This document shows positions 1,495 through 59,709 of a DNA stretch of 64,000 nt, in pieces. Under the pieces are notes generated by a model that saw nothing but the letters and a program-made list of their open reading frames with translations, made no database searches and was not told the origin of the DNA. Position 1 is the stretch's first letter; each line of letters opens with the position of its first letter. The stretch lies in contig NZ_AP018042.1 in the NCBI RefSeq assembly GCF_002356295.1, positions 4,682,361 through 4,746,360 on the forward strand, written 5' to 3'. The position numbers and the translations under genes are program-made. The stretch comes from Labilibaculum antarcticum (GTDB lineage: Bacteria; Bacteroidota; Bacteroidia; Bacteroidales; Marinifilaceae).

Positions 1495-1716
1495 AAGAGC
1501 GTGTGTTTACTGCAATTCCAACTTTGTTCATACATAATAAGTGGTGGTGTTGATGAAATAATGCGGTGTAAAGTTTTTTTATTAAATAATTATTGTTTAG
1601 CTTCATTGCGTTTTTGTTAAATAGTTGTTCCCGGCCGGGGCAGTGCAATCAAAACAAAATTTGTGTGGGAGAATTGGTGAGGAAAGATAATATTCACTTT
1701 TTTAAAACTATTATTA
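1495..1716 (+). promoter_or_regulatory. Conserved leader of locus 1
   Basis: This ~220-nt noncoding stretch aligns end to end with the region upstream of the paralogous gene at 47775. Shared blocks, in order, are: an AAG-G-CGT-TTTACT block; CATAATAAG-TGGTGGTG near 1533-1550 (CATAAATAAGATGGTGGTG at locus 2); a TAGCTTCAT block near 1599; TTTTGTTAA near 1612; the hairpin at 1623-1650; CAATCAAAA; a TTGTG-GAGAATTG block; TATTCA-CTTT; and the ATGTC start. Such conservation upstream of two genes that have diverged in protein sequence implies function at the DNA or RNA level. It could be a 5' UTR regulatory RNA, a separate small RNA, or a protein-binding region. Which of these is unknown. Confidence 0.7.
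1623..1650 (+). ncRNA. Leader hairpin, locus 1
   Basis: A hairpin of 28 nt. Outer pairs GTTG/CAAT (one G-U), an internal bulge, then TCCC pairing with GGGG around a GGCC loop. CCCGGCCGGG in it is a perfect palindrome. The same 28 positions at locus 2 (47683-47710) fold the same way. At position 8/17 a T-A pair in locus 2 is replaced by C-G here, and the outer pairs are also kept. The 5' strand TTCCCGG is the exact complement of the CCGGGAA core of the downstream 21-bp array. Confidence 0.55.
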
Positions 1717-2475
1717 ATGTCAGAATTACAAAACTATCAGGATTCATTAGAAGAAATTCAAGCTGTTACCCGCGAGGCAGTAAAACATTGTAATCTTCCT
1801 TTCGAAATCTTTATTCACGAAGCCAAAAAGGTATGCAACATAGCCGAAGAGGACATTGCTGTTTTGGCGCCTTTGGGATTGCAACAAGAAAAAATTGAGC
1901 GTTGCAATGTATTAACAGGCGCTTTGCTTACGGCTGAACTGAATTGGGAGAATCAGAATACCGAGCGCAAGGAGGCTATGGCAAAATGGAAAGCCGATGC
2001 TCCTAAAATGAACGAACAAATTAGTGATATGTACGCCACCATGAGGTTTGCCTACCGGAACAACCAGCGTTTGCTGGCAATTTTGGATACAATTAGCGAG
2101 GGAGACTCGAATGCCGATGCAGTGATGGATTTGGCGCGTTTGGGTTCGCTGGCAAAAGAGAATCCGGAGCCTTTGCAAGCGATTAGTTACGATATGGAGC
2201 AGTGCAATACTGCTCTTACTGAAGCGGAACGCATGAGTGCCTTATTGGCCGAGGTAAATGGCAATATGTATGTCGACGATGAGAAAAAGGTAATCCGCGA
2301 CAAAGCCTACACTCTTGTAAAAGTTTTGGTTGACGAAATAAGAGAATATGGAAAATTTGCTTTTCGCAAAGACGAGGATCATGTGCGTTTGTATGCCAGT
2401 AAATACCAGCGCGACCGGAAAGCGGAATATCGCAGAACAAAAATTGAGAACGAGGTGGATGCTGAACAGGCTTAA
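1717..2475 (+). CDS. Array-associated helical protein, locus 1 (unknown function)
   Basis: A 252-aa, probably all-helical soluble protein without signal peptide or membrane segment. It is a paralogue of the product of 47775-48542, at roughly 40% identity by eye. Shared landmarks are MS-x-x-QN near the start, LEEI-AVT-EA (11-22), TGAL-TA-NW (near 67-77), AP (about 95), a DAV/DLA-LG-EN-AL-AISYD run (about 135-160), and a strongly conserved C-terminal block RDKAYTL-K-VDE-R-YGKF-FR followed by Y-SKY-R-R-A-YR (about 193-240). That C-terminal block ends in a basic, Arg/Tyr-rich tail which could contact nucleic acid; that is inference. I cannot name the family with confidence. All-helical Bacteroidota DUF families of about 250 aa (DUF6261 is one candidate) should be compared. 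The gene is monocistronic, framed by a conserved leader and a terminator-like hairpin, and followed by a 21-bp tandem array. Confidence 0.85.
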   Translation: MSELQNYQDSLEEIQAVTREAVKHCNLPFEIFIHEAKKVCNIAEEDIAVLAPLGLQQEKIERCNVLTGALLTAELNWENQNTERKEAMAKWKADAPKMNEQISDMYATMRFAYRNNQRLLAILDTISEGDSNADAVMDLARLGSLAKENPEPLQAISYDMEQCNTALTEAERMSALLAEVNGNMYVDDEKKVIRDKAYTLVKVLVDEIREYGKFAFRKDEDHVRLYASKYQRDRKAEYRRTKIENEVDAEQA

Positions 2476-2523
2476 TTGAAAGGCATGTAGCTGTTTACGA
2501 AATAGTGGTTTGGTCCACACCAT

Positions 2524-2556
2524 GGGGAATCTGTTCGGGTTCCCTTTTTTAATGCC
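2524..2556 (+). terminator. Terminator-like hairpin after locus 1 gene, conserved with locus 2
   Basis: GGGAA (2525-2529) pairs with TTCCC (2540-2544) around a 10-nt loop. It is followed by six T and AATGCC. Locus 2 has the same 5-bp stem, the same loop length of 10 (different loop sequence), seven T and ATGCC at 48583-48614. The element therefore seems to be part of the cassette. If it terminates efficiently, the array downstream would not be in the mRNA, or only in read-through transcripts. Confidence 0.6.
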
Positions 2557-2605
2557 TTCCTCCCAAACTTCACTGTCTCCTGACTCAAAATGAATACTGG
2601 ATTTC

Positions 2606-2775
2606 TGTCCGGGATGATCTGGAACGTGTCCCTGAAACAGTACCTCCTGTCCGGGAAAGACTCCCAGCTTGTCCGTGAAACCGTAATTCATGTCCGTGAA
2701 GCCCTGACTCCTGTCCGGGAAGCTCTCATTCTTGTCCGGGAAATACTCACTCCTGTCCGGGGGGTTGTCATTCAG
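2606..2775 (+). repeat. 21-bp tandem array, locus 1 (8 units)
   Basis: Eight units begin with TGTCC at 2606, 2627, 2648, 2670, 2691, 2712, 2733 and 2754. The steps are 21, 21, 22, 21, 21, 21 and 21. Each unit is a ~10-nt core (TGTCCGGGAA, or TGTCCGTGAA in units 4 and 5, TGTCCCTGAA in unit 2) plus ~11 nt that vary but tend to end in CTCC/ATTC. The period is two helical turns, so cores lie on one face of the DNA. The steps make an open frame (2590-2805) encoding a seven-residue VREALTP-like repeat. The one 22-bp step changes that frame, and the locus 2 array has stops, so coding is unlikely. The array is unlike CRISPR (too short) and unlike the REP elements elsewhere in the window. Confidence 0.85.
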
Positions 2776-3030
2776 GATGTTACAAAAAACGAATTAGTTA
2801 GATGAGTGTCTTCTCCTGAAATCCATAAAGGACAATATTTTAATATGGAGTTCTACTTCAGTAAACCTAACAGCGTGTTTAGGCCTGAAAGCGTCTGTGT
2901 CAATTCTAAACAAATAACCATCAAGTCTTATGGTCTCGAAATTACAGTGCTTACTGATTGGAAATAAACTGTTTATTTGGTGTTTCTGCATAAATGCTCT
3001 AAATTTAGTATCGAGCCTATAAAAGTCAAT
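2776..3030 (+). other. Noncoding stretch between array and histidine kinase
   Basis: No supported gene. It includes AACCTAACAGCGTG and CCTGAAAGCG (about 2865-2893), which resemble half-sites of the REP elements at 43-55 kb (AACCTGTCAGCGTC, CTGAAAGACC) but are degenerate. The promoter of the kinase gene must lie here; I found no convincing consensus. Confidence 0.4.
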
Positions 3031-46699: not shown

Positions 46700-47110
46700 A
46701 ATGAAAACGAATTTTAAATATTGTCACAGGCAATCTATACAGGTTGATGAAATTGACGATTTACAGATAGACCTGACAGGTTTCTAAAATGGGTCAGGTC
46801 TTTTCGTTTCGATGCTGTCCGGTTTATGAAGTGGTAAACACAAAACCTATTAGCGTCTGAAAGACCTGACAGCGTTGAAATTCCAAAAGGCCAACTTCAT
46901 TTTTTGCACCTTTTTGGTTTTCTGATCAAGAGAATTGTAAATATTGTCACAGGCAATCTATACGCGTTGATGAAATTGACGATTTACAGATAGACCTGAC
47001 AGGTTTCTAAAATGGGTCAGGTCTTTTCGTCTCGATGCTGTCCGGTTTAATGAAGTGGTAAACACAAAACCTGTCAGCGTCTGAAATTCCAAAAGCACAT
47101 CTCAAATAGT
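46700..47110 (+). repeat. Two tandem REP/RAYT-remnant units
   Basis: CAGATAGACCTGACAGG recurs at 46764 and 46987 (223-bp period). Each unit has the RAYT C-terminal fragment (ATATTGTCACAGGCAATCTATAC, related to CHTQSIP), then a GACCTGACAGG/GGGTCAGGTC inverted repeat, a GATGCTGTCCGG block, and AACCT-T-AGCGTCTGAAA. They are more degenerate than the 43-44 kb field and resemble the C-terminal end of the intact RAYT better than the KKSIPFDE version in that field. No gene is present. Confidence 0.75.
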
Positions 47111-47559: not shown

Positions 47560-47774
47560 TTCTGTAAGGCTCGTTTTTACTAAGTAAATAGTTGGGATAA
47601 ACATAAATAAGATGGTGGTGGACTTGATTGTAGGTTTTTAATTCAATAATTAATTTGTAGCTTCATCATGATTTTGTTAAGCGATTGTTTCCGAAAGGAG
47701 CGTTTCAATCAAAATAGTTATTGTGAAGAATTGATTGTGGGGTAGAATAGTATTCATCTTTAAAAAATAGTATT
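47560..47774 (+). promoter_or_regulatory. Conserved leader of locus 2
   Basis: Homologous to 1495-1716. Shared blocks are AAGGCTCGTTTTTACT, CATAAATAAGATGGTGGTG, TAGCTTCATCATG, TTTTGTTAAG, the hairpin at 47683-47710, CAATCAAAA, TTGTGAAGAATTG, TATTCATCTTT and the start ATGTC. The protein-coding parts differ at more than half of their residues, so leader conservation of this length suggests constraint on DNA or RNA. Confidence 0.7.
47683..47710 (+). ncRNA. Leader hairpin, locus 2
   Basis: GATTG pairs with CAATC. An inner stem TTCC/GGAG closes a GAAA (GNRA) tetraloop. The equivalent hairpin at 1623-1650 has GGCC in place of the GAAA loop, and a C-G instead of a T-A pair at the third inner position. 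TTTCCG on its 5' side is complementary to CGGAAA, the core of the 21-bp array that follows this gene (present as such in unit 7; other units match CGGAA). Confidence 0.55.
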
Positions 47775-48542
47775 ATGTCTGATCAACAAAACTTGTTGGA
47801 CTTATTGGAAGAAATTAAGGCTGTAACCGAAGAGGCAATTGTTTATTGCGATATGCCATATCAGGTTTACATCAACGAAGCGGAAGGATTGCATTCCCGA
47901 GCCAGTCTCGACATTGCTTCATTGGTGAAATACAATATGGAGCCGAATAGCTTGAATCGTTTATTGGCTTGCACCGGAGCACTTCGCACCGCACAATCCA
48001 ATTGGCAGTCACAAAAAACGGATAAGAAGAAAGCCCGAGAGGCCTGGGATGCAGAAGCCCCAGAGCTGTTTCGCTTTCGCGATGAATTGGCAGATCATCT
48101 GGCCTTTGCCCTTCGGAATAAGCCAACGGAATTAGAAATAGTGAAAAAGATTAAAGAGGGAACATCAAGATCGGATGCCATTCAGGATTTAGCCGATTTG
48201 GCAGTTCTGGGAAGAGAAAATGCACCTGCACTAACAGCCATAAGTTACGACCTGAGCTTATTGGATAAGGCAACTGGAATGGCTGATTACTTTGGGGGTT
48301 TGTTAGGAGAGCTTAACGGGCACATGTATTTCGAAGATGATATTAAATTGGTTCGCGATAAGGCCTATACACTTACCAAAGAAATAGTAGATGAAGTAAG
48401 AAGCTATGGCAAATTTGTGTTTCGGAATAATCCGGTGAAACGAGAGGCGTATACCAGCAAGTACAGCCGTGAACGGATGGCCGCTTATCGAAATCAGCCC
48501 GAAACAGAAGAAATAATAAATGAAACAACAATTGAAAATTAA
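47775..48542 (+). CDS. Array-associated helical protein, locus 2 (unknown function)
   Basis: A 255-aa paralogue of the protein at 1717-2475, with the same MS-x-QN start, LEEI-AVT-EA (about 11-22), TGALRTAQSNW (about 67-78), DAIQDLADLAVLGREN-P-L-AISYD, and the RDKAYTL-KEIVDEVRSYGKFVFR block (about 195-220), followed by Y-SKYSRERMAAYR. Probably an antiparallel helical bundle with a basic tail. No signal, membrane segment or catalytic motif is apparent. Unknown family; an unrelated neighbour cluster (DUF4145/PIN) lies downstream of its array. Confidence 0.85.
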   Translation: MSDQQNLLDLLEEIKAVTEEAIVYCDMPYQVYINEAEGLHSRASLDIASLVKYNMEPNSLNRLLACTGALRTAQSNWQSQKTDKKKAREAWDAEAPELFRFRDELADHLAFALRNKPTELEIVKKIKEGTSRSDAIQDLADLAVLGRENAPALTAISYDLSLLDKATGMADYFGGLLGELNGHMYFEDDIKLVRDKAYTLTKEIVDEVRSYGKFVFRNNPVKREAYTSKYSRERMAAYRNQPETEEIINETTIEN

Positions 48543-48582
48543 GTAAGTATTTACAACTACATACATGTAAAAACTGAGGGAG

Positions 48583-48614
48583 GGGAAGCAGCAATGTTTC
48601 CCTTTTTTTATGCC
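48583..48614 (+). terminator. Terminator-like hairpin after locus 2 gene, conserved with locus 1
   Basis: GGGAA (48583-48587) and TTCCC (48598-48602), loop of ten, then seven T and ATGCC. Same architecture as 2524-2556. Confidence 0.65.
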
Positions 48615-48633: not shown

Positions 48634-48978
48634 TTCTGCTACCTGTTTTTGCCTTTCCGTTCCAACTTTCTATTCTTCCGTTCGTTCTTTTAGTCCATTT
48701 GTAACACGTTTTTGTTCTTCCGTGCGTTACGGAAGTTCTAAGTCTTGTCACGGAAGGCATGGTTGATGTTACGGAGACTCATTTGACCTGTTACGGAAGC
48801 TCCAATCCATGTTACGGAAGGCATTATTGCTGTTACGGAAGCCCAAATATATGTTACGGAAAGGCATTATTGCAGTTACGGAAGCACTATTTTATGCACT
48901 AATGGGGTTCTCTGTTGCACAAATTAAGTTCTTTTATGCTCAAATGAATACATCTGCTGTGCAAATGGCATTACTTGC
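48634..48978 (+). repeat. 21-bp periodic array, locus 2 (about 16 units, three cores)
   Basis: Three parts share the 21-bp step. First, TTC-pyrimidine units at 48634, 48655, 48676, 48697 and 48718, with TTCCGTTC at 48655 and 48676. Second, eight TGTTACGGAAG units at 48725, 48746, 48767, 48789, 48810, 48831, 48852 and 48874 (two steps are 22). Third, four units of a different core (TGCACAAATG-like) at 48895, 48916, 48937 and 48958, still in the same phase. The first part is in inverse orientation: TTCCGT and GTAACA are the reverse complements of ACGGAA and TGTTAC. Spacers are variable, but GGCATTATTGC is shared by units 5 and 7, and ATGGCATTACTTGC, almost the same, by the last unit of the third part. 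Confidence 0.85.
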
Positions 48979-51333: not shown

Positions 51334-51361
51334 GACAACAACATCTAATTACTATTTAATA

Positions 51362-52084
51362 ATGATTCAAGCCACTACCCATATTGATAGCCTACACACT
51401 CAGGTGAATGTTATTGATACAACTATTACTCATGTTCATGTTTATGATACCATTGTTACCCATGTTTACAGTACTGTGCCACCTGATTTGATTGCTGTGT
51501 ATGATAAAGTAATAGCAAGTCAAGACTCAAGATTTATATGGATACTCTCGCTATTAGGTGTATTTGTAACTTTATTGGTTGTCGTTTTCGCTTGGTTCAA
51601 TATTGACGTAGCTAAAAAGCTATTCAGAAAAGAATTTGAAGATATTATAAAGGAGGAAAAGCCTAAGATAAAAGAAGAAACTATAAAAGAACTTGATAAG
51701 GAATTGAACTTAATAAAAGCGGAAAGTGCTCGATTGTTTGCTTTATCAAGCAATGATAATGATTTGAACCTAGCCAATAAAATTTTTTGGTGGTTTAAAG
51801 CCCTTGAGTATTACAGTAAATCTGATAATACAAGACTTCAAAAAATCTGCATTAATTCTTTAATTGAAGATCTTGAAAAAGCAGTAGAAAAAAAAGAAAT
51901 ATTCCTAAGATACTTTAATCTAGCTGAATACTCATTTGAACACCATGAAAAGCAATGCGACCATATTCACGACACAGTATCTGAAAAAAAGACTATTCTA
52001 AATTACTTAAAACAATTAGAGGAATATAGTAAGCAGGAAGATGCAAAGATTGTGGATGCTATAGAAGTAGAAGAGACAAGATAG
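51362..52084 (+). CDS. Single-pass membrane protein, unknown, in DUF4145/PIN cluster
   Basis: A 240-aa protein with an unusual Thr/His/Val-rich N-terminus (about 1-40; THIDSLHTQVNVIDTTITHV and HVYDTIVTHVY show a short imperfect internal repeat), probably outside the cell. One transmembrane helix at about 55-77 (FIWILSLLGVFVTLLVVVFAW) is followed by a coiled-coil, Glu/Lys-rich cytoplasmic part (KEEKPKIKEETIKELDKEL) and a helical C-terminus. No recognised family. It follows the previous stop by 28 bases. Confidence 0.75.
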   Translation: MIQATTHIDSLHTQVNVIDTTITHVHVYDTIVTHVYSTVPPDLIAVYDKVIASQDSRFIWILSLLGVFVTLLVVVFAWFNIDVAKKLFRKEFEDIIKEEKPKIKEETIKELDKELNLIKAESARLFALSSNDNDLNLANKIFWWFKALEYYSKSDNTRLQKICINSLIEDLEKAVEKKEIFLRYFNLAEYSFEHHEKQCDHIHDTVSEKKTILNYLKQLEEYSKQEDAKIVDAIEVEETR

Positions 52085-53820: not shown

Positions 53821-54381
53821 AAACAACGCCGGTGCACATCATGCTGCGTGCTATCATTCAAACGCTGACAGGTCCAAGGACGCTGTCAGGTTTTGTGCAG
53901 TAAGAAACCTGTCAGCGTCTGCAAGACCTGACAGCGTTTAAAAAGAAGAAAAATCTATTATTTATTACAACAGTATGCAGGCATTAGATACTCTTGAATT
54001 TGGGCAATACTATCACATTTACAATCGTGGTATAAATGGGTGCGATTTATTTGCAAACAATCAAACGCTTACAGGTCCAAGGACGCTGTAAGCGTTTTGT
54101 GCAGTGGGAAACCTGTCAGCGTCTACAAGTCCTGACAGCGTTTAAAAAGAAGAAAGATCTATTATTTATTACAACTGTATGCAGGCACTAGATACTCTTG
54201 AATTTGGGCAATACTATCACATTTACAATCGTGGTATAAACGGATGCGATTTATTTGCAAACAATCAAACGCTCACAGGTCCAAGGACGCTGACCGATTT
54301 AGTGGAGTGGGAAACCTGTCAGCGTCTACACGACCTGACAGCGTTTAAAAAGAAGAAATATTTATCATTTACAACAAGCTT
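53821..54381 (+). repeat. Tandem truncated RAYT N-termini joined to REPs
   Basis: Two long copies of the transposase start, at 53975 and 54179, each encode MQALDTLEFGQYYHIYNRGI and break off after CDLFANNQ into a REP. Steps between starts are 204 bases, and the next step (203) leads to the intact gene at 54382. REPs lie at about 53859-53939, 54063-54142 and 54267-54346. The block GCGTTTAAAAAGAAGAAA precedes each start, so the repeat unit is REP end + leader + first ~90 bases of the gene. The open frame 54179-54403 is a relic, not a gene. Confidence 0.85.
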
Positions 54382-55053
54382 ATGCAAGCCACAGAACCTT
54401 TAGAATTAGGAAACTATTACCATATCTACAATAGGGGAATAAACGGGTGCGACTTGTTTACAAGTGAAGAAAATTATCAATACTTCTTGAACCTGTACGA
54501 AAAACACATCGATCCTATTGCAGATACTTTTGCATGGGTAATGATGCCTAACCATTTTCATATTCTGATAAGGTTAAAGGAGGGAATTGTTTACAAACAT
54601 TCAAACGCTGACAGGTCAATGGACGCTGTCAGGTTTAATGAAGTGAAGTGGGAAACCCAAAACCTGTTAGCGTCTGAAAGACCTGACAGCGTTAAAATTC
54701 CAAAACCACATCTTCATTTTTCGCACTTTTTTAACGCTTATACCAAATATATTAATCAACGAAACAATCGCCACGGATCTCTTTTCGAACGTCCGTTTAA
54801 GCGTAAGCTAATTAACAACGAAAGTTATTTAAATAATGTATTAGTGTATATCCATCAAAATCCGGTGCACCATGGTTTTTGTGAGCACCCAATAGAATAC
54901 GGTTGGAGTAGCTACTTAGGTTGTATAAGCTCTAAACCAACTAAAATTAGGAGAGAGGCTGTTATTAAATGGTTCTCTGATAGGGAGAATTTTAAATATT
55001 GTCACACGCAATCTATACCTGTTGATGAAATGGATGAGTGGCTGGGAATTTAA
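54382..55053 (+). CDS. RAYT (REP-associated tyrosine transposase) with REP inside its reading frame
   Basis: A 223-aa IS200-like Y1 transposase of the TnpA-REP class. NYYHIYNRGINGCDLF (about 11-26) and FAWVMMPNHFHILIRL with the HUH histidines 58 and 60 are the family signature. The nucleophile is most likely Tyr120 in FFNAYTKYIN. RGSLFERPFKRK-type (HGSLFERPFKRK), YIHQNPVHHGF and YGWSSY follow. Residues ~72-108 are not family sequence but the translation of a REP element at 54603-54695 that keeps the frame. So either the enzyme tolerates this insert or the gene is dying. Other REPs flank it on both sides. Confidence 0.88.
   Translation: MQATEPLELGNYYHIYNRGINGCDLFTSEENYQYFLNLYEKHIDPIADTFAWVMMPNHFHILIRLKEGIVYKHSNADRSMDAVRFNEVKWETQNLLASERPDSVKIPKPHLHFSHFFNAYTKYINQRNNRHGSLFERPFKRKLINNESYLNNVLVYIHQNPVHHGFCEHPIEYGWSSYLGCISSKPTKIRREAVIKWFSDRENFKYCHTQSIPVDEMDEWLGI
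54603..54695 (+). repeat. REP element inside the RAYT gene
   Basis: AACGCTGACAGGTC and GACCTGACAGCGTT form the outer arms (one mismatch). GGACGCTGTCAGG and AACCTGTTAGCGTC are imperfect inner arms. The copy lies in frame in the transposase CDS. Confidence 0.85.
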
Positions 55054-58372: not shown

Positions 58373-58845
58373 AAAAACAATAGTACGAGTATCATCCACA
58401 ATAATAAGGTGTTCTGCTTTGTAGGCAAGGGCACGAGCCAGTACGATACGCTCCAAATCACGACCTTTACGGATCAAATCTTTACTGGTATCCTTGTGCG
58501 TTATCCGCATAATATCTTGCTCGATAATTGGAGGGATTCCCAATAAATAGACCTTATTGGTACCCTCACTGGGAGTGAGAGCACCAAGCTCATGGTGTAA
58601 TTAAAAAACGATAGTACGCGTACCATCCACAATAATTCGGTGTTCGGCTTTGTAGGCAAGGGCACGAGCCAGTACGATACGCTCCAAATCACGACCTTTA
58701 CGGATCAAATCTTGAATGGTATCCTTGTGCGTTATCCGCATAATATCTTGCTCAATAATTAGTGGGGCTCCCACTGGAGTGGGATTCCCAATAAATAGAT
58801 CTTATTGGTACCCTCACTGGGAGTGAGAGCACCAAGCTCATGGTG
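58373..58845 (-). pseudogene. Two tandem partial copies of the purU 3' end
   Basis: About 150 bases that encode the last ~50 residues of PurU are repeated twice downstream of the gene, at about 58373-58532 and 58612-58765. GTAGGCAAGGGCACGAGCC is at 58421, 58652 and 58900 (steps 231 and 248). Between copies lies ~85 bases with GGTACCCTCACTGGGAGTGAG and AGCTCATGGTGTAATT. The copies differ from the gene at a few bases and cannot encode a full protein. Confidence 0.85.
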
Positions 58846-58848
58846 TAA

Positions 58849-59709
58849 TTAAAAAACAATAGTACGGGTACCATCTACAATAATGCGATGTTCGGCTTTG
58901 TAGGCAAGGGCACGAGCCAGAACGATACGCTCCAAATCACGACCTTTACGGATCAAATCTTGAATGGTATCCTTGTGCGTTATCCGCATAATATCTTGTT
59001 CGATAATTGGTCCTTCGTCCAGATTTTCGGTAACAAAGTGGCTGGTAGCTCCAATCATCTTCACACCTCGCTCGTAGGCTTGCTTGTATGGGTTTCCTCC
59101 CACAAAGCCTGGTAAAAAGGAGTGGTGTATGTTGATAATTTTATTGTTGAACTCACGAATAAAGTTCGGCGATAAAACCTGCATGTAGCGAGCCAAAACG
59201 ACCAAGTCGATATTGAGTTCTCTTAGTAAAGCAATTTCTTTTACTTCCTGTTCCTGTTTGGTTTCCTTGGTTATCGGAAAAACATGATATGGAATTCCAG
59301 CAGCATCGGCAATTGGTTTCAAATCTGGGTGATTCGAGATGATTAAAGGAATCTCGATGTCGTATTCGTTCATGTTATAACGCCACAGAATTTCCTGCAG
59401 GCAATGGTCGTATTTCGATACAAAAATGGCGACGCGTTGCTTGTGATTCGAAAATTCAATTCTCCAATGCGCATCAAACTCCTTGGCAAGAGGTTCAAAA
59501 GCCTCTTTAAGCTTGGAAGCGGGAATAGTAGAGTTGGTCATGTTCCATGCAATTCGTAAAGAGAAAAACTGCTGGTTCTGGTTTACATGTTCATCCAAAT
59601 CGATGATGTTTCCGCCTATTTGGTATATGAATTGGGTGATTTTAGCTACAATCCCGTTCTTATCGGGACAAGTGAAGAGTAAAAATGCGTTTACATTATT
59701 TTCAGACAT
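58849..59709 (-). CDS. purU: Formyltetrahydrofolate deformylase
   Basis: A 286-aa protein. N-terminal ACT domain (about 5-85; FLLFTCPDKNGIVAKITQF) and C-terminal formyltransferase fold: VAIFVSKYDHCLQEILWR, IPLIISNHPDLKP, PYHVFP, LVVLARYMQVLSP, IINIHHSFLPGFVGGNPYKQA (catalytic His/Asn) and GATSHFVTENLDEGPIIEQD. It hydrolyses 10-formyl-THF to formate and THF. The gene's last ~150 bases are duplicated twice behind it. Confidence 0.96.
   Translation of the reverse strand: MSENNVNAFLLFTCPDKNGIVAKITQFIYQIGGNIIDLDEHVNQNQQFFSLRIAWNMTNSTIPASKLKEAFEPLAKEFDAHWRIEFSNHKQRVAIFVSKYDHCLQEILWRYNMNEYDIEIPLIISNHPDLKPIADAAGIPYHVFPITKETKQEQEVKEIALLRELNIDLVVLARYMQVLSPNFIREFNNKIINIHHSFLPGFVGGNPYKQAYERGVKMIGATSHFVTENLDEGPIIEQDIMRITHKDTIQDLIRKGRDLERIVLARALAYKAEHRIIVDGTRTIVF

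Follow-up and report, generated by a model that had tools for sequence, protein, structure and literature searches.

Genes for a family of small helical proteins in Marinifilaceae are nearly always followed by their own 21-bp periodic arrays

The window, as we call the whole 64-kb stretch of Labilibaculum antarcticum DNA analysed here, carries two copies of a cassette in which the gene for a small helical protein is accompanied by its own array of short phased repeats. Analysis of relatives confirmed that this pairing of a protein gene with its own array is wider than the two window loci, and that some marine Bacteroidota have the gene in several copies. We propose, with a probability of roughly 45%, that the protein binds its own array cooperatively, along one face of duplex DNA and in a sequence-specific manner. 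The binding is inferred, and there are no binding or expression data.

Two cassettes of the same layout in the window

A preliminary description of this DNA had reported a leader hairpin, a protein gene, a terminator hairpin and a 21-bp array in the same order at two places, with diverged proteins. All four parts are present at both places (Table 1), and the two proteins have 44% identity across 239 residues. When the 64-kb window was scanned in sliding steps for 20–22/41–43 bp periodicity, the top 18 of 2550 positions all fell in the two arrays, and array 1 gave an autocorrelation z of 9.0 at lag 21. Tandem Repeats Finder (TRF) reported 21/42-bp arrays at 2644–2761 and 48746–48884; the extents of the cores, about 2604–2763 and 48653–48885, come from the motif search and are wider. 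The source genome is a single contig of 5.72 Mb.

Table 1. Features of the two window loci
Feature	Position	Strand	Basis
Leader hairpin, locus 1	1625..1643	+	Covarying 5-bp stem in 14 clade leaders
Helical protein gene, locus 1	1717..2475	+	ORF, 252 aa, all-helical model
Terminator-like hairpin and T run between gene and array, locus 1	2524..2551	+	Fold of 2476–2552; z of stretch −1.07, within the ordinary range
21-bp array, locus 1, core CcTGTCCGGGAA	2604..2763	+	TRF; 9 motif sites, 8 in phased run; phased copies in one orientation
Tag ATTTCAGGAGAAGACA	2807..2822	-	By eye like an insertion-sequence end; genome matches to ATTTCAGGANAAGACA
Leader hairpin, locus 2	47685..47703	+	Covarying stem common with locus 1
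Helical protein gene, locus 2	47775..48542	+	ORF, 255 aa
Terminator-like hairpin and T run between gene and array, locus 2	48576..48609	+	z −4.75; 0/200 shuffles fold as well
21-bp array, locus 2, core TGTTACGGAAGg	48653..48885	+	TRF; 10 motif sites; 2 inverted then 8 direct copies

Other repeats were seen elsewhere in the window. Positions 51351–51466, at the start of an ORF (51362–52084), show a 30-bp repeat along with a weaker 21-bp periodicity (z at most 4.9). Repeats around ACCTGTCAGCGTCT / AGACCTGACAGCGTTT, both dispersed and in tandem (204-bp unit), lie at 46800–47100 and 53858–54463, intergenic and palindrome-like by eye at both places. Positions 58533–59008 hold a near-perfect 248-bp tandem duplication (1.9 copies, 96% match).

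The array is tied to the gene

We found that 86 of 92 homologues have a 20–22 or 40–43 bp periodic array right after the gene, as against 1/91 with one in the upstream flank. The criterion was an autocorrelation z of at least 4 at lags 20–22 or 40–43, and by the same measure flanks of other window genes gave 1/39 downstream and 0/38 upstream (1/77 in total). When all lags from 14 to 60 were compared, the best was one of the seven lags 20–22/40–43 in 91/92 downstream flanks. Median z for the arrays of the window family was 5.7 at 20–22, 5.6 at 40–43 and 3.6 at 61–64. One of the 93 loci had too little downstream sequence and two had too little upstream; the 92 downstream flanks are not independent, two genomes (G032 and G033) having near-identical loci. 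Three further relatives on named contigs, outside the 93-locus set, peaked at lag 21 with z of 7.8, 4.3 and a weak 3.4. The preliminary description had held that the array belongs to the gene, had taken the whole for a real and possibly undescribed cassette, and had proposed a search of homologues for a ~21-bp array. That search has now been run; its refuting outcome, homologues mostly without an array, did not occur, and both claims are supported.

Leader and terminator belong to the window clade

The same description had treated the leader and the terminator as parts of the cassette, which stands at the two window loci and does not carry over to the family. The 5-bp leader hairpin covaries across 14 leaders (0.776, compared with 0.307 ± 0.063 in shuffled versions, 0/500 as high), and slid versions of the hairpin reached at most 0.273. 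Folding of the whole leader was not above shuffles (z +1.08 at locus 1, +0.51 at locus 2); the leader amounts to a short hairpin and not to a large structured RNA. Leaders of other clades differ. A second clade carries another conserved leader, which is longer and in which the covariation term is weak, and Rfam gave no match in the two own-genome loci scanned. This second strongly conserved 5' leader (CATCGGCTGGTCATCAACCG...GGAAGAGGAGGCCGATGG) was observed at positions 1381–1500 of locus L044 and in eight relatives, with few compensatory changes. RNAalifold found no common structure in the leaders of a third clade. Rfam matched nothing in the window at gathering thresholds and nothing at seven own-genome loci up to E 0.5.

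A terminator-like hairpin lies between stop codon and array in only 29 of 74 arrays, and after the array in 6/74. Several clades have an array that begins about 6–36 nt past the stop codon and is probably transcribed with the gene. Since the terminator may come before or after the array, co-transcription with the gene is not constant. The leader hairpin and the pre-array terminator are real features of the window clade and are not family-defining.

These observations bear on the main rival explanation, which we consider unlikely but worth keeping in view: the transcribed array acts as RNA that the protein binds, whether a scaffold or a set of short guides. The guide version, somewhat TIGR-Tas-like, would take the core as the repeat and the variable 11-nt stretch as the spacer. 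Arrays that start so close to the stop codon, the few terminator-like hairpins after the array and a 5' leader hairpin that is itself a covarying RNA element all suit it. However, in the window clade a terminator-like hairpin parts the gene from the array.

Array anatomy favours phased sites on duplex DNA

Each array unit is ~21 bp long, of which a core of ~10 bp is repeated and the rest varies. Across the 93 loci, neighbouring cores of the same orientation are 21 bp apart 317 times, 20 bp apart 94 times and 22 bp apart 27 times, and any other distance below 70 bp occurs at most 25 times. We based the similarity and spacing analyses on 60 good arrays, leaving out the 33/93 loci without at least 5 phased sites. 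There, 292 of 406 core spacings (72%) were 21 bp; these 406 were counted solely within 19–23 bp, and the 93-locus count took in all distances. Some arrays have a mean period near 20.5. The motif search takes the best-repeated 12-mer, and the contrast between core and spacer within an array is partly built in.

The predominance of 21-bp spacing also fits an array that codes for a heptad-repeat peptide, 21 bp being 7 codons, and locus 1 can be read by eye as VRE heptads in one frame. We regard this explanation as scarcely credible. Spacings of 20 and 22 bp break the frame, arrays with a mean period near 20.5 exist, inverted blocks would encode something else, and locus L002 has a stop in the equivalent frame (by eye). 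A peptide-coding array is disfavoured by the spacings, although no codon-level test was made.

Many arrays of the window clade consist of an inverted core block (TTCCG...) followed by a direct block (...CGGAA), with 7 and 8 cores in the case of L012. Phased core blocks of at least 3 sites in both orientations were found at 19/93 loci, or 15 of the 60 good arrays; a looser count of 28/60 took in unphased sites. Most arrays have phased cores in a single orientation, and the phased copies of locus 1 are direct only.

A neutral minisatellite, expanded by slippage after the gene and hitchhiking without function, would account for array lengths, which vary, and for the 42- and 63-bp higher-order repeats, which show unequal duplication. 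It would not readily account for a period near 21 or 42 shared by those 86/92 homologues, for inverted copies, for cores mostly conserved beside diverged spacers (see below) or for PQLLE genes, whose arrays share this period but lie on the opposite flank, and we hold it to be very improbable.

The arrays tested gave no indication of RNA structure. The spacers of inverted arms showed no complementarity (0.311 in register versus 0.310 out of register, 10 arrays), so that the two-arm arrays are not hairpins. Variable palindromes inside units were absent (1/65 chains at p<0.05), and none of 40 arrays had local hairpins with z<−2 against shuffles, the set being the first 40 arrays of the window family with z of at least 6. 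Folding of the two window arrays themselves did not clearly exceed that of shuffles (z +0.43; z −1.94, with 5/200 shuffles as good). An array of RNA hairpins is rejected for the window family on the strength of the non-complementary arms, the lack of palindromes and folding no better than in shuffles. For the RNA explanation more broadly, the window arrays and the 40 local arrays that fold no better than shuffles and the 19/93 loci with phased cores in both orientations count against it. Together, inverted cores in some arrays, frame-breaking spacings and the lack of RNA structure favour double-stranded DNA sites with two-turn phasing.

Cores vary together with the protein

The six intact copies in the own genome have cores of five kinds, one of which is common to two paralogs: CcTGTCCGGGAA at locus 1, TGTTACGGAAGg at locus 2, CaTGTTACGGAA at L008, and AATAGGCTTGAA, AATGGTAATTTG and TTcTtGCTACAG at the other three. 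Across the 60 arrays, core similarity correlates with protein identity (Mantel r 0.57 from the 1742 pairs under 80% identity; none of 2000 permutations reached it). Below 40% protein identity core similarity is at background, with a median of 0.31–0.32. A similar core (at least 0.6) was found in another genome for 51/60 arrays, and in only 4/107 within-genome paralog pairs.

Cores and spacers were then compared between relatives, where the contrast is not built in by the motif search. The core is conserved above the spacer in 128/162 relative pairs (medians 0.595 versus 0.46) and not in the other 34/162. The pair L012/L030 illustrates this, with proteins at 57%, cores at 85% and spacers at 37%. 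Linked descent explains part of the correlation between core and protein; the contrast with the spacer, the sole control against linked descent, points to function as far as such comparisons can tell.

A narrow protein family without a known domain

A profile search with the window protein gave 120 matches, spread over 22 of the 56 genomes in its taxonomic family, with at most 9 in any one. These are represented by the 93 loci, the remaining rows being mostly fragments and not loci of their own. The own genome has 7 matches on its one 5.72-Mb contig, and 6 of them are intact genes. Phylum-wide, matches occurred in only 6 of 395 genomes, one being the own genome and 5 being weak (at most 6 candidates were scored per genome). 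Because of this low and mostly weak yield, the family, as judged by profile search, is narrow and rare outside its taxonomic family. Named contigs with relatives come from Labilibaculum, Marinifilum, Ancylomarina and other Marinifilaceae, and single relatives were also found in one Marinilabiliaceae isolate and one Carboxylicivirga MAG.

The AlphaFold2 model of the locus 1 protein consists of helices only, one of them 56 residues long (mean pLDDT 93, pTM 0.74). Foldseek found no fold match for the window protein in the PDB at E≤0.001, and a PDB sequence search found none at E≤0.1. Pfam gave nothing above cut-off for the two window proteins, the nearest being Enhancer of rudimentary at 24.2 bits versus 25. 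Among 87 members Pfam gave scattered matches only, each in 1–3/87, with no known DNA-binding domain. When four proteins were compared with a defence library, there was a single weak match, of protein 2 to PDC-S24 (E 0.0005, 58 residues), and phage families likewise gave a single weak match for the four. With the locus 1 protein as query, tblastn at E≤0.01 found no relative among plasmid or phage records, and viral contigs gave none either.

Gene-less arrays and an insertion-end-like tag

Relatives of both window arrays occur without a gene in the own genome; the search for such copies covered only these two arrays and this genome. Array 1 has two, at 2.037 and 2.534 Mb (one is 77% over the full length, one 74 and 82% in two pieces), and array 2 has two, at 0.123 and 0.068 Mb (one at 79%, one at 70%). 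No gene remnant was detected when the 93 family proteins were compared by tblastn with the gene-less arrays, L169 left out (best E 0.059). By eye, two of the gene-less arrays (L170 and L174) keep a terminator-like stretch and L175 is without it. The 16-bp tag ATTTCAGGANAAGACA has 7 full matches in the genome, 6 of them beside an array (locus 1 included); the remaining match has, by eye, the look of a genuine insertion-sequence end. None of 5 one-mismatch copies lies beside an array. Two more periodic arrays lie beside the insertion-end-like tag, L181 at 2.519 Mb and L184 at 5.644 Mb of the own genome (z 5.9 and 7.3, respectively), where no match to the window family, DUF6261 or PQLLE was reported.

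These copies raise the possibility of a REP/RAYT-like selfish pair, in which the protein keeps or spreads the array and the gene-less arrays are dispersed copies. Two gene-less relatives per window array without a gene remnant, and a tag found beside arrays in 6/7 full matches versus 0/5 one-mismatch copies, are what such a pair could leave behind. However, two copies per array is not a REP-like high copy number, no transposase family was found in the protein, and no target duplications were found, though these were not searched for systematically. Gene loss beside a duplicated cassette would explain the gene-less arrays equally well, and insertion near arrays would explain the tag. We consider the selfish pair improbable; gene loss with insertion near arrays accounts for the observations most simply, and movement of the array is not excluded.

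PQLLE and DUF6261 genes also have arrays

The preliminary description could not place the protein in a family of known function. This needs revision in one respect. The PQLLE family (NF052641) is matched by 41/87 members at E≤0.001 (best 5.1e-9), and hhalign of the window family with PQLLE gave a probability of 95.7% (E 8.8e-9, 209 columns). The window proteins, at 29.2 and 17.1 bits, do not meet the PQLLE cut-off of 80 bits. The member matches and the profile comparison place the window protein as a remote relative of PQLLE, albeit far below the cut-off of that family.

PQLLE matches occur in 11 of 296 genomes of the phylum, 4 above cut-off. We examined 19 loci of 30 rows, 14 of the 19 being below cut-off. 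All five loci above cut-off have an upstream array (lag 21 or 42, z 4.9–13.6), and 16 of 18 loci with enough sequence reach a z of at least 4 upstream; a cleaner figure is 14/18, which drops L133, in fact an 11-bp satellite, and L122, whose 42-bp repeat looks different. The upstream region of L131 is AT-rich. PQLLE thus resembles the window family in having a small protein with a 21/42-bp array at the gene, and differs in that its arrays lie upstream of the gene and those of the window family downstream. The loci L123, L124 and L132, which give only weak PQLLE-type matches, each have a strong 21/42-bp array upstream, and their proteins have a C-terminal extension that by eye resembles a fibronectin type III domain.

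DUF6261 (PF19775) has 12 matches in the own genome, 11 over cut-off, where PQLLE has 1; it occurs in 3/198 genomes of the phylum. Upstream arrays with a period of 41–43 were found at 13 of 16 tested genes (16 loci of 17 rows were examined), and 12 of these 13 were below z 4 at 20–22 bp. DUF6261 proteins are of similar length to those of the window family, also have a model of helices only and share the own genome and the periodic array beside the gene. In contrast, their array is upstream, with a period of 41–43 and in most without the 21-bp sub-period. Homology of DUF6261 to the window family and PQLLE is unsupported and not detectable by sequence: DUF6261 was absent among the Pfam matches of the 87 members (E≤0.01), and hhalign gave E 0.13. 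Some tendency to local hairpins was seen in 4/13 DUF6261 arrays. Three DUF6261 genes (L108, L160 and L163) have near-perfect 41-bp repeats upstream (z 14.7–21.8), suggesting recent expansion. Two or four turns of B-DNA as a common measure of the three families is an inference.

A proposed mechanism

Our data suggest that in each cassette a small all-helical protein may be matched with an array of binding sites private to it, the ~10-bp core being what this protein would recognize. With cores ~21 bp apart, two turns of B-DNA, protein copies could stack along a single face of the duplex, and the stacked copies could form a cooperative nucleoprotein filament or cluster beside the gene. Were the pair to duplicate and protein and core then to change together, several pairs might coexist in a genome without cross-talk. 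Binding of the array by the protein, a double-stranded DNA ligand, cooperativity and the absence of cross-talk are all inferred.

Duplex sites would allow core blocks in both orientations. Against binding to duplex DNA are the lack of a known DNA-binding domain and the lack of core-protein tracking below 40% identity, as well as the mostly single-orientation cores and the arrays close after the stop codon, which would suit a role as RNA. As to function, our guess is that a role in local DNA architecture or anchoring, centromere- or silencing-like, is likelier than simple autoregulation, because the array follows the gene and, in the window clade, lies beyond the terminator.

We tentatively extend the proposal, at somewhat less than even odds, to a so far unrecognised Bacteroidota class, with many different pairs coexisting in a genome, in which the small helical proteins of the window family, PQLLE and DUF6261, each with private two- or four-turn arrays, form sequence-specific nucleoprotein assemblies (on DNA, or conceivably on array RNA) with a fold new to nucleic-acid recognition. 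The own genome holds 7 window-family, 12 DUF6261 and 1 PQLLE matches side by side. Should the protein prove to read its own core, the pairs would amount to a natural set of matched specificities, each protein variant with its target written beside the gene, and sequence alone could then teach the rules of recognition. It would also give a functional lead for PQLLE and DUF6261, which have no function in the libraries searched.

Comparison with known systems

Among known systems with a gene beside its repeats, plasmid iterons with their Rep protein have phased direct repeats beside the gene, a Rep initiator domain and a plasmid replicon. The window family meets the first of these, with direct sites about two helical turns apart beside the gene of the presumed binder. 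It differs in having no Rep family among its Pfam matches, a chromosomal location on a 5.72-Mb contig and no plasmid match for the locus 1 protein at E≤0.01; membership fails on the Rep domain and the plasmid replicon.

REP/RAYT (REPIN) systems pair a HUH (Y1) transposase with high-copy dispersed palindromes. Here too a gene adjoins its own repeats, and some gene-less copies lie elsewhere in the genome. However, the repeats of the window family form a phased tandem array, not dispersed palindromes, and no transposase family was found among the Pfam matches of 87 members (E≤0.01). Membership fails on the protein domain and on the high-copy dispersed palindromes.

Box C/D motifs were sought as the strings CTGA and GATGA. 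On either strand of the 60 array consensus units, CTGA was found in 4/60 and GATGA in 1/60. No Nop family was present among the Pfam matches of 87 members (E≤0.01), and no Nop protein among the best 50 of 654 Foldseek matches. The rarity of such motifs and the lack of a Nop domain count against the RNA explanation. TIGR-Tas systems are described as having a Nop domain protein and an array of two distinct alternating 8–12-nt repeats, whose spacers are mostly 9 nt long and from which 36-nt guide RNAs are processed, and as being carried by phages and parasitic bacteria (PMC12045711). The likeness is one gene next to an array in which short repeats alternate with short variable stretches, and such a layout, with a conserved short repeat and variable spacer beside one helical-protein gene, resembles that of TIGR closely enough to lend the RNA explanation some support (PMC12045711). 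The arrays of the window family differ in having one repeat type with one core per ~21 bp, not two alternating, in their chromosomal location and, for some, in cores of both orientations. TIGR-Tas membership fails on the Nop domain, the alternating repeats and box C/D.

No description of such a gene-array cassette was found among the papers listed from the open-access PMC literature, judged by title and start of abstract; bioRxiv is outside this literature, and absence from print is not established. In the same listings PQLLE is unmentioned and DUF6261 appears in one unrelated paper. If our reading of a protein bound to its own phased sites is true, CRISPR, TIGR, REP and iterons would be joined by a new kind of array-associated system.
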